Shown: positions 52,932 to 58,060 of the stretch, one piece after another | Layout: each line of letters begins with the position of its first letter | Position numbering within the stretch: position 1 is the first letter of the stretch | From: an uncultured Alphaproteobacteria bacterium | GTDB lineage: Bacteria; Pseudomonadota; Alphaproteobacteria; HIMB59; GCA-002718135 | Reading direction: 5' to 3' | NCBI GenBank assembly: GCA_902577425.1 | Contig: CACGZD010000002.1 | Span: 1 to 64,000 of the forward strand | DNA length: 64,000 nucleotides | Made by a program: the position numbers and the translations under genes | The notes under the pieces: model-generated | Seen by the model: only the letters and a program-made list of their open reading frames with translations | The model's database searches: none | What the model was told of the DNA's origin: nothing

Positions 52932-54637
52932 TGAAAAAAATTAGTAGAGATGCTTATGCTGATATGTATGGACCAACAACTGGTGATAAAATTAGATTAG
53001 CTGACACAGAACTTTTTATAGAAGTTGAAAAAGACCTTACAACTTATGGAGAAGAAGTTAAATTTGGAGGAGGCAAGGTTATAAGAGATGGTATGGGTCA
53101 ATCACAAGTCTCAAGAAAAGATGGAGCAGTTGATACAATTATAACAAACGCTTTAGTAGTTGATGTAAATGGAATTTATAAAGCAGATATTGGTCTAAAA
53201 GATGGTTTAATAAATGAGATAGGCAAAGCAGGTAATCCTGACACACAACCAAATGTAAATATTATTATAGGTCCTGGTACTGAGATAATTGCTGGAGAAG
53301 GAAAGATTATTACAGCTGGCGGTTTTGATAGTCATATACATTTTATTTGCCCTCAGCAAATTGATGATTCTTTGCACTCTGGTATCACAACTATGTTAGG
53401 AGGTGGAACAGGACCAGCTCATGGAACTTTAGCAACAACTGTTACTCCTGGTCCATGGCATTTAGAAAAAATGATTCAATCAGCAGATGCCTTTTCAATG
53501 AATTTAGCTTTTGCTGGCAAAGGTAATAGTTCTCTGCCTTCCGCACTTGAAGAGCAGGTAATTGCAGGAGCAAGTTCCCTTAAATTACATGAAGATTGGG
53601 GCACAACTCCTGCTGCAATCGATAATTGTTTAAATGTTGCTGACAAATATGACATTCAAGTGATGATACATACTGATACATTAAACGAAAGTGGCTTTGT
53701 CGAAAGTACTATTAAAGCAATTAATGGAAGAACTATTCATGCCTTCCATACTGAGGGAGCTGGTGGAGGACATGCGCCAGATATTATTAAAGTATGTGGA
53801 GAAAAATATGTTATTCCTTCTTCAACTAATCCTACCAGACCTTATACAATTAATACAGTTGAAGAACATTTAGACATGCTCATGGTATGTCACCATCTTG
53901 ACAAATCTATTCCTGAAGATGTTGCTTTTGCTGAAAGTCGTATTCGAAAAGAAACGATTGCTGCAGAAGATATTCTTCATGACATGGGTGCATTCTCAAT
54001 TATTGCTTCAGATAGTCAGGCTATGGGTCGTGTAGGTGAGGTTATAATTAGAACATGGCAAACAGCCCATAAAATGAAAGTACAACGAGGACAGTTAAAA
54101 GAAGAAAATGGGGATAATGATAATGTAAGAGTAAAAAGATATATAGCTAAATATACTATCAATCCTGCTATAGCTCATGGAATATCTGAAAATATTGGAA
54201 CGATTGAAAAAAATAAACGAGCTGATATTGTAATTTGGGATCCAGCATTTTTTGGAGTAAAGCCTGAAATTATCTTGATGGGTGGAAGTATTGCATGTGC
54301 TCAAATGGGCGACCCTAATGCATCAATACCGACTCCCCAGCCAGTGTATTCAAGACCAATGTTTTCTTCTTTTGGAAAATCTCTTGAAAAATCTTCCGTA
54401 ACATTTGTAAGTCAAATATCTCTTGATAGAGATATACATAAGAATTCAGGCATTAATAAATCATTATTGCCAGTTAAGAATATTAGAAATATTTCAAAAA
54501 AAGATATGATATTAAATAATTATTGTCCACAAATAGAAGTAAACCCTGAAACTTATGAAGTTTTAGCTGATGGAGAACTAATAACATGCGAACCTGCTAA
54601 AACCCTACCTTTGGCACAACGTTACTTTATGTATTAA
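52931..54637 (+). CDS. ureC: Urease alpha subunit
   Basis: [43 protein letters not shown] (carbamylated Lys), MVCHHL. Confidence 0.98.
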
Positions 54638-55722: not shown

Positions 55723-56330
55723 ATAATATTAATGGACCGCTAAAAGTTGGTATAGGTGGGGGAATCGGAACAGGTAAAACTAGTCTGACAGAAGCACTCT
55801 GTCGTCATTTATCCAAAAAAATATCTATGGCAGTTATTTCAAATGATATTTACACTATAGAAGATGCTGAATATTTAATGAAAGCCCAAGTGCTCCCTAT
55901 GGAAAGAATTAAAGGAGTAGAAACTGGAGGATGCCCTCATACAGCTATTAGAGAAGATTGTTCTATTAATTTACTAGCTGTAGATGAAATGATAAAAAAA
56001 TTTCCTGATCTTGAACTAATATTAATTGAGTCTGGAGGAGATAATTTAGCAGCGACATTTAGTCCTGAATTGGTCGACTTAACAATTTATATGATTGATG
56101 TTGCAATGGGAGCAGATATTCCCAGAAAGAAAGCTCCAGCAATTAAAAAATCTGATTTATTAATAATTAATAAAATAGATTTAGCTCCATATGTTGAGGT
56201 AAATTTAGATCAAATGAAAATTGATGTTGAAAAAGCTAGAAATGGCTTACCATATATTTTTGGTGAAATGAAAAAAAACAACGGTATTGATAAGATTTCT
56301 GAGTTTATAATTTCTCATGGTGGATTATAA
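55719..56330 (+). CDS. ureG: Urease accessory GTPase UreG
   Basis: [52 protein letters not shown]. Confidence 0.97.
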
Positions 56331-56340
56331 TTTTAATATG

Positions 56341-56415
56341 TGGTGGGTGCGACAGGGATTGAACCTGTGACCCCTGCCGTGTCGAGGCAGTGCTCTACCG
56401 CTGAGCTACGCACCC
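56341..56415 (-). tRNA. tRNA-Val (anticodon GAC)
   Basis: Minus strand GGGTGCGTAGCTCAGCGGTAGAGCACTGCCTCGACACGGCAGGGGTCACAGGTTCAATCCCTGTCGCACCCACCA; closed cloverleaf, encoded CCA. Confidence 0.93.
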
Positions 56416-56551
56416 TAATGGTTTATATGATATATCTAATTCAATATTAAAAGTCCTTAGTAATATTTAAGTTTTATTACAATTAATAAAAAATAATAAA
56501 TTATTTATTTTCCTCTTGAATAATTAAATTTTTTATAATAAAAACTTTTTT

Positions 56552-56614
56552 AATCGTTCATCTTTAAAAATTTATTTTTAAGGACGGAAGTAGACGAAAG
56601 TCGAAGGAACGCAT
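56552..56614 (+). ncRNA. glnA-type (glutamine-I) riboswitch aptamer, copy 1
   Basis: ATCGTTCA-[TCTTTAAAA/TTTTAAGGA stem]-CGGAAGTAGA-CGAAAG-TCGAAGGAACGC; outer CGTTC/GAACG pairing. Confidence 0.88.
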
Positions 56615-56627
56615 GCAAAGTTATAAA

Positions 56628-56689
56628 ATCGTTCAATTCTCATTAATTTTGAGAATCGGAAGTAGGTTTATACCGAAGGAACGCGGATC
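56628..56689 (+). ncRNA. glnA-type (glutamine-I) riboswitch aptamer, copy 2
   Basis: ATCGTTCA-[ATTCTCA/TGAGAAT stem]-CGGAAGTAGG-TTTAT-ACCGAAGGAACGCGGAT; same core with compensatory stem changes. Confidence 0.9.
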
Positions 56690-56702
56690 TTATTATTATA
56701 AT

Positions 56703-56772
56703 TTCCATAGCTACGCATGAAAAGTAACACATAACTAGTGGTTAGTTATGTTTAGTGAACTTTATTATGGAG
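56703..56772 (+). promoter_or_regulatory. Putative expression platform: anti-SD TTCCATA (56703-56709) versus SD TATGGAG (56766-56772), with hairpin CATAACTA/TAGTTATG between
   Basis: Direct complementarity between the segment just 3' of aptamer 2 and the amt ribosome-binding site. Confidence 0.55.
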
Positions 56773-56779
56773 AATAATA

Positions 56780-58060
56780 ATGAATAAATTTTCTTTTTTT
56801 GGTTTATTTATAGGCTCTACTTTACTATCTTCATCTGCTTTTGCAGCAGTTGATCCAGAAGTTTCCTATATTTTAAACACTCTCTTATTTTTGATAGGAG
56901 GTTTTTTAGTAATGTGGATGGCAGCTGGTTTTGCCATGCTAGAATCAGGATTAGTTACATCCAAAAGTGTTGCTACAATAGCTGCAAAAAATATAGGCTT
57001 ATATTCTATTGCTGGAATAATGTTTTGGTTTATTGGATATAACTTAGCATACGGTATCCCTGAAGGAGGGTTTATTGGTACTTTTCTTCCTTGGAGTGAT
57101 GCAAGCTCAATAGAAACAGGATATTCAGATGGTTCTGACTGGTTTTTCCAAATGGTTTTTTGCGCAACAACCTGTTCTATTGTTTCTGGAACAATGGCAG
57201 AAAGAATTAAAATTTGGCCATTCTTTTTATTCTGTGCAATCTTAGCTGGCATTATTTACCCAATTGAAATGGGATGGCAATGGGGTGGAGGTCATCTTGC
57301 AGCTGCTGGTTTTTCTGACTTTGCTGGCTCAACATTAGTTCATAGTGCTGGAGGTGCTGCAGCTCTTGCAGGAGCAATACTTCTTGGCCCAAGACTTGGG
57401 AGATTTACTGAAACAGGTGATGCGAAAGCAATGGCACCTTTTGCTAGTTCCTCAATACCTTTGGCAACTTTAGGAGTATTTATTTTATGGTTAGGTTGGT
57501 TTGGTTTTAATGGTGGATCACAGTTAGCTTTAGGATCGTTCGATGATTCAACTTCTGTAGCTACTATTTTTATAAATACTAACTTAGCTGCTTGTGCAGG
57601 TGTAATGGTTTGTGCAGGTGTTTCTAGACTCGTAGGTGGCAAAACAGATGTTATAATGATGCTTAATGGTGCATTAGGTGGACTTGTAGCTATAACTGCT
57701 GAGCCTCTTACACCTTCGCCTATTATGGCAATCATCATTGGTGGTATTGGTGGACTGGTTGTCTATTACGGCACTTTATTATTAATAAAACTTAAAATAG
57801 ATGATGTGGTTGGAGCTATTCCAGTTCATGGATTTGCTGGTATTTGGGGCACATTAGCTGTTCCTCTTACAAATTCAGGAGCAAATTTTGGTTCTCAAAT
57901 TTATGGTATCCTTTGGATTAATATTTTTGTTTTCATTATTGCATTTATTGTTTGGTATTTAATGAAAATTTCTATGGGTATTAGAATTAGTGAAGAAGCT
58001 GAAAAACTTGGTACTGATAAAGCTGAAGTAGGCGTAATGGCATACTCTATTAGAGATTAG
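56780..58060 (+). CDS. amtB: Ammonium transporter (Amt/MEP/Rh family)
   Basis: Signal peptide-like N-terminus; ESGLVTSKSVATIAAKN; STLVHSAGGAAALAGAILLGPRLGRF; GWFGFNGGSQLALG; IPVHGFAGIWGTLAVPL. Confidence 0.96.
   Translation: MNKFSFFGLFIGSTLLSSSAFAAVDPEVSYILNTLLFLIGGFLVMWMAAGFAMLESGLVTSKSVATIAAKNIGLYSIAGIMFWFIGYNLAYGIPEGGFIGTFLPWSDASSIETGYSDGSDWFFQMVFCATTCSIVSGTMAERIKIWPFFLFCAILAGIIYPIEMGWQWGGGHLAAAGFSDFAGSTLVHSAGGAAALAGAILLGPRLGRFTETGDAKAMAPFASSSIPLATLGVFILWLGWFGFNGGSQLALGSFDDSTSVATIFINTNLAACAGVMVCAGVSRLVGGKTDVIMMLNGALGGLVAITAEPLTPSPIMAIIIGGIGGLVVYYGTLLLIKLKIDDVVGAIPVHGFAGIWGTLAVPLTNSGANFGSQIYGILWINIFVFIIAFIVWYLMKISMGIRISEEAEKLGTDKAEVGVMAYSIRD

Follow-up and report, generated by a model that had tools for sequence, protein, structure and literature searches.

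Tandem glutamine-I aptamers have been known since Weinberg 2010 (PMC2864571), and 157 such doublets have been counted and filed as pseudo-cooperative (PMC9481103). The glutamine-I P1 helix terminates in a long-range base pair with a counterpart in glutamine-II, a class thought to act on translation given its closeness to the start codon (PMC6698751), and the known glutamine riboswitches are ON switches (PMC6316151; PMC6698751). For the tandem glycine riboswitch a leader-linker interaction is known, as recorded in the title of Sherman 2012, cited in PMC9481103. Marine tandem glutamine riboswitches are common, yet little has been described of their expression platforms. Here we analyse the amtB leader in a 64,000-nucleotide stretch of DNA (the window) from a 1.5-Mb alphaproteobacterial genome, and propose with moderate confidence that it is a translational glutamine switch in which two aptamers would act on one shared expression platform, with glutamine most likely repressing. 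The elements of the leader are as follows.

56553-56615, plus strand: glutamine-I (glnA, RF01739) aptamer 1, cmscan 64.0 bits
56555, 56611 and 56612, plus strand: landmarks C1, G59 and C60 of aptamer 1
56612-56624, plus strand: linker strand L, CAUGC-aa-AGUUAU, 5' arm of helix P0 and candidate anti-anti-SD
56628-56687, plus strand: glutamine-I aptamer 2, cmscan 62.9 bits
56685-56706, plus strand: hairpin P4, between aptamer 2 and the 3' arm of P0, in the amtB and ATP-grasp classes
56690-56709, plus strand: anti-SD, UUAUUAUUAU plus UUCCAUA, whose partner is the SD and start-codon region
about 56699-56720, plus strand: switch strand S, UAAUUUCCAUAGCUACGCAUGA, directly 3' of aptamer 2
56707-56719, plus strand: 3' arm of P0, AUAGCUacGCAUG, part of S
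56729-56751, plus strand: connecting hairpin joining anti-SD and SD, with strong covariation
56766-56772, plus strand: amtB Shine-Dalgarno (SD) region UAUGGAG, with pairing counts in homologues
56780-58060, plus strand: amtB, ammonium transporter of 426 aa, Pfam PF00909, 331 bits

Both aptamers lie well above the RF01739 gathering score of 35 in a cmscan of the leader, which confirms them as predicted members of the glutamine-I class and bears out the first-pass annotation, which had placed two aptamers here. The numbering of aptamer 1 was transferred from the glutamine-I/II comparison in PMC6698751. The genes adjoining such aptamers serve nitrogen assimilation: amtB (PF00909) here, and glnA beside glnB in the same genome. 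Judged by their sequence the two aptamers are ordinary for RF01739, and the novelty would sit in the expression platform.

The first-pass annotation had proposed that the platform works on translation, through an anti-SD that follows aptamer 2 immediately, a proposal that both the complementarity in homologues and the absence of a terminator support. Its letters and coordinates hold. TTCCATA (56703-56709) is complementary to TATGGAG (56766-56772), in which GGAG stops 7 nt short of the ATG (56780); the upstream TTATTATTAT (56690-56699) pairs on the start-codon side with AATAATAAT (56773-56781); and the hairpin CATAACTA-GTGGT-TAGTTATG stands at 56730-56750, between the two arms. The two anti-SD parts form a single long helix with a 2-nt bulge, for which RNAduplex gives -15.4 kcal/mol when UUAUUAUUAU is included. 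Dinucleotide shuffles of the SD region average -7.5 and none of 200 is as strong, while the same measure applied to the 53 window genes of at least 150 aa averages -6.8 (sd 2.7), with amtB ranked first.

The same annotation held that a lack of conserved SD/anti-SD complementarity in homologous leaders would speak against it; complementarity to the SD or the start codon in fact recurs in amtB and glnA leaders. Across 27 distinct amtB leaders the 7-bp anti-SD:SD core is paired in 90.7% of cells, with the outermost A:U (56709:56766) paired in only 9 of the 22 sequences that have letters at both positions. The UUAUUAUUAU extension is confined to the window's genus, and other clades carry their own, often matching, version. 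In the largest genus many amtB homologues give no significant anti:SD result by generic duplex scoring, so we relied on these column counts and on a comparison of matched with swapped pairs. When anti and target were exchanged among 11 clade groups, the matched pairs proved 1.2 kcal/mol better on average than the clade-swapped ones (mean permutation P 0.017). SD complementarity is weak or absent in part of the ATP-grasp class, and the amtB homologue L086, although it has P0, shows a weak one (-4.9).

That annotation overlooked what would be the other half of the switch: by sequence, the anti-SD strand has a second complement in the linker between the two aptamers. Folding of the window leader reveals 11 bp of complementarity between S and L, in which CAUGC (56612-56616) pairs with GCAUG (56715-56719) and AGUUAU (56619-56624) with AUAGCU (56707-56712). 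The resulting helix, P0, encloses aptamer 2 and its 5' arm begins at C60 of aptamer 1 (56612). Hairpin P4 forms from GGA (56685-56687) with UCC (56704-56706) and UUA (56690-56692) with UAA (56699-56701). P0 competes with the anti:SD helix for 56707-56709, and P4 uses 56704-56706, so that in the folding model P0 and anti-SD:SD are mutually exclusive, alternative pairings of the same strand.

This arrangement recurs throughout the tandem leaders, of which we collected 95 distinct examples (50 amtB, 25 glnA and 20 ATP-grasp). In all of them the inter-aptamer linker of 17-19 nt is conserved and almost wholly taken up by P0, and a linker of the type GCAUGC-(1-4 nt)-GUUAU occurs together with an S element AUARCU-(2-3 nt)-GCAUG, with slight variants. 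The L:S energies of these leaders run from -10.5 to -12.6 kcal/mol, while the means for shuffles lie between -4.5 and -8.4, and in none of the 95 are more than 5.5% of shuffled linkers as good as the real one. Over the 27 amtB leaders L, S, the aptamer core and the P4 arm show 96-100% mean identity (L 98%, S 96%), as against 57-63% for the P2 loop, the P4 loop, the spacer and the SD-AUG gap. Pairing in the same leaders stands at 99.3% for P0, 99.4% for P4 and 93.0% for the connecting hairpin, and the glnA P0 with its extension is about 99% paired.

Covariation among relatives, which the annotation had suggested as a check, is found in the connecting hairpin, where 6 of 9 pairs are changed on both sides (29 cells) and none of 500 shuffles matches the observed covariation score. 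P0 shows no two-sided compensatory change in either the amtB or the glnA alignment. Because the helix is almost invariant covariation cannot prove it, and the predicted P0 rests instead on complementarity and on the joint conservation of L and S. Two other roles for this segment were considered and rejected: S as a stand-alone hairpin (CAUaGC-UAN-GCAUG) is not preserved in glnA or L086, and UUUCC does not pair with the aptamer core GGAAGU in the window's folding ensemble. Both aptamers carry identical P1 strands (CGUUC/GAACG) in all tandem leaders. A swap of P1 partners between the aptamers, which would leave L in a hairpin loop, is possible and appears as an alternative state in folding.

In the window's family, tandem aptamers precede amtB (often in two copies), glnA and a circularly permuted ATP-grasp gene, identified on a relative as PF14403. 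S follows aptamer 2 directly, as UUUCCAUAGCUAAGCAUGA in the amtB and ATP-grasp classes and as UUUCAUAACUAGAGCAUGA in glnA, with few variants. The glnA class has the same P0; in it the partner of S is the start codon rather than the SD (AUUUCAUA:UAUGAAAU, 99.1% of cells). The host genome itself carries such a tandem riboswitch between its glnB and glnA (L003/L004; contig C6, 79992-80115, minus strand), and at every locus where the glnB stop is readable, 43-45 nt separate it from the start of the glnA switch. Such a position inside the glnB-glnA pair fits gene-specific translational control. In the ATP-grasp class at most about 6 bp can form between S and the start of an upstream ORF. This ORF of about 17-25 codons lies just after the hairpin (L014, L019 and others; for example MVKKLDNKKIFYSNLKRFTP), and in many members its end meets or overlaps the start of the ATP-grasp gene (TGATG), its own start region being the target of S; the overlap suggests that the two reading frames are translationally coupled.

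Outside the window's family, an amtB tandem was found in one genome, labelled SAR116 (L086). The order comprises two families, and the sister family lacks glutamine aptamers. A class-wide sample of 385 genomes added one other family only, with single aptamers, and a phylum-wide sample of 399 genomes yielded no further carriers. In two species of that second alphaproteobacterial family (L220, 1503-1553, and L227) the AUG lies 4 nt after the aptamer's own 3' strand, GAAGGAAC, which can act as an SD, so that these single aptamers would be direct-occlusion riboswitches. The host genome also holds a single glutamine aptamer (L005; contig C6, 5565-5624) with neither L nor S, and the gene after it resembles, in its N-terminal sequence, a second and diverged ammonium transporter. 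Viral contigs were considered and set aside: neither form of S occurs in them, and their sole linker match (L197) is a chance one, with the aptamer absent.

The leader looks bistable in folding. For transcript ends from 56725 to 56775, with S already made, the probability of P0 is about 0.98 (0.93-0.99), and at 56785, where the SD has been added, the population is mixed, P0 falling to about 0.3 while SD:anti rises to about 0.67; this length series is thermodynamics at each length, not kinetics, and its balance varies with the 3' end chosen. We propose that S is a common strand with two mutually exclusive partners. In one state S would pair with L, forming P0 with P4 alongside and leaving the SD free. 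In the other, the anti-SD in the 5' half of S would reach over the connecting hairpin to pair with the SD and the start region, and translation would be blocked. P0 would be able to fold first during transcription, with the SD competing on its emergence. Glutamine would most likely shift the leader to the blocked state and repress amtB, the filled aptamer 1 claiming C60, which would cost P0 its first pair and release S. The region 56330-56830 contains no terminator-like sites, as the annotation had noted for the leader, and we reject transcription termination for this reason. Together with the fixed distance between the glnB stop and the glnA switch, the terminator-free amtB leader makes translation the likely level of control.

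The direction of the response depends on the modelling. Folding with and without the aptamers constrained does shift the balance between P0 and anti-SD:SD, in a direction that depends on the handling of C60; nearest-neighbour folding leaves out the ligand and tertiary contacts. From the glutamine-II equivalence and from the structure, we take C60, the nucleotide after G59, to be the partner in the long-range pair. When both aptamers are formed and C60 is reserved, the SD-sequestered fraction rises from 0.35 to 0.79 in the window, and 21 of 25 glnA leaders move towards sequestration (glnA value 0.97); the average amtB leader hardly changes (0.41 to 0.45; 21 up, 12 down). Repression would fit the genes themselves, since amtB and glnA serve ammonium uptake and assimilation under nitrogen scarcity, and it is also implied by the single aptamers of the two second-family species, where GAAGGAAC would serve as the SD. 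We hold repression by glutamine to be somewhat more likely than not. The same two states could operate with reverse polarity, a filled aptamer 2 joining the P0 arms so that S is held and amtB translation goes up. This we regard as somewhat unlikely. Folding of aptamer 2 would shorten the loop of the enclosing P0, forcing both aptamers with C60 left free lifts amtB P0 from 0.56 to 0.90 (anti:SD falling from 0.41 to 0.10, with the SD open), and ON switching is what has been seen in the glutamine-I and -II riboswitches characterised to date (PMC6316151, PMC6698751). Yet the effect is gone once C60 is reserved, the same model shifts the glnA class towards sequestration (0.69 to 0.91), and ammonium uptake and glutamine synthetase would be raised when glutamine is plentiful. 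In the folding model aptamer 2 alone pushes against sequestration. The two aptamers might be opposing sensors, aptamer 1 opening P0 through C60 (repression) and aptamer 2 closing it (activation), which is quite unlikely; if true, a single RNA that reads the same metabolite twice would respond in a band-pass or threshold manner.

Two further explanations were weighed. S:SD pairing might simply set a low basal translation, with P0 unused and L and S kept, for example, as a protein or small-RNA site. The P0 strands lack covariation, so their conservation could be for sequence; yet L and S, with about 85 nt between them in the window, show 11 bp of complementarity throughout the tandem leaders, they are missing from the single aptamers (L005 in the host's own genome and those of the second family), and the few changes in P0 are mostly pairing-neutral (U-G to U-A, A-U to G-U), which makes this account improbable. 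Still less credible is a pair of independent pseudo-cooperative riboswitches with a platform for each aptamer. Tandem glutamine-I riboswitches are listed among such systems in PMC9481103, whereas the 17-19-nt linker here holds neither terminator nor ribosome-binding site and is nearly all in P0, so that no second platform is evident. We retain the shared platform with glutamine as the probable repressor; it would tune protein output up or down with the cell's glutamine level.

The wider setting is a streamlined marine lineage. No sigma-54 factor was detected in 20 genomes sampled from the order, and genomes of the window's family have one PII gene each where one was detected. Closely related AmtB proteins occur in named marine single-cell genomes labelled Alphaproteobacteria, many relatives have two amt genes, and the window contains a urease operon. 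From the urease operon, the two amt genes and the two-clade split we infer a match to AEGEAN-169 clade II of PMC11366302. Within the window, 53088-53361 on the minus strand matches the Rfam 5' ureB sRNA (94 bits), antisense to the urease large-subunit CDS; the match may be only conserved urease coding sequence read backwards.

At the level of single bases, our computational analysis offers a model in which the inter-aptamer spacer would itself be the switching strand, conserved over three gene classes. The model names a few bases on which the response should depend, and it opens the sign of the glutamine effect on amtB and glnA to direct test. On present reading the new element is the expression platform, single and shared, with the inter-aptamer spacer as its predicted working strand; no prior description of such a platform was found in the papers searched, and an earlier account may exist. 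The leader resembles the known tandem glutamine-I riboswitches in its RF01739 match, its tandem layout and its downstream nitrogen genes (amt, glnA), and departs from them in the shared single platform, in the linker as switching partner and in its alphaproteobacterial host, where reviews stress cyanobacteria and marine environmental sequences. With the cyanobacterial gifB glutamine-I and with glutamine-II (Downstream-peptide, RF01704) it would share its ligand, as predicted from sequence; those are reported ON switches for a glutamine synthetase inhibitor or small proteins, and no linker-based platform is described for them in the texts examined. Like the tandem glycine riboswitch it has two aptamers with one expression platform, the difference being that the linker here would pair with the platform itself, enclosing aptamer 2. 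It would share with translational anti-RBS riboswitches the exchange of an anti-SD between the SD and a second partner, but that partner lies between two aptamers rather than in the P1 strand of one.
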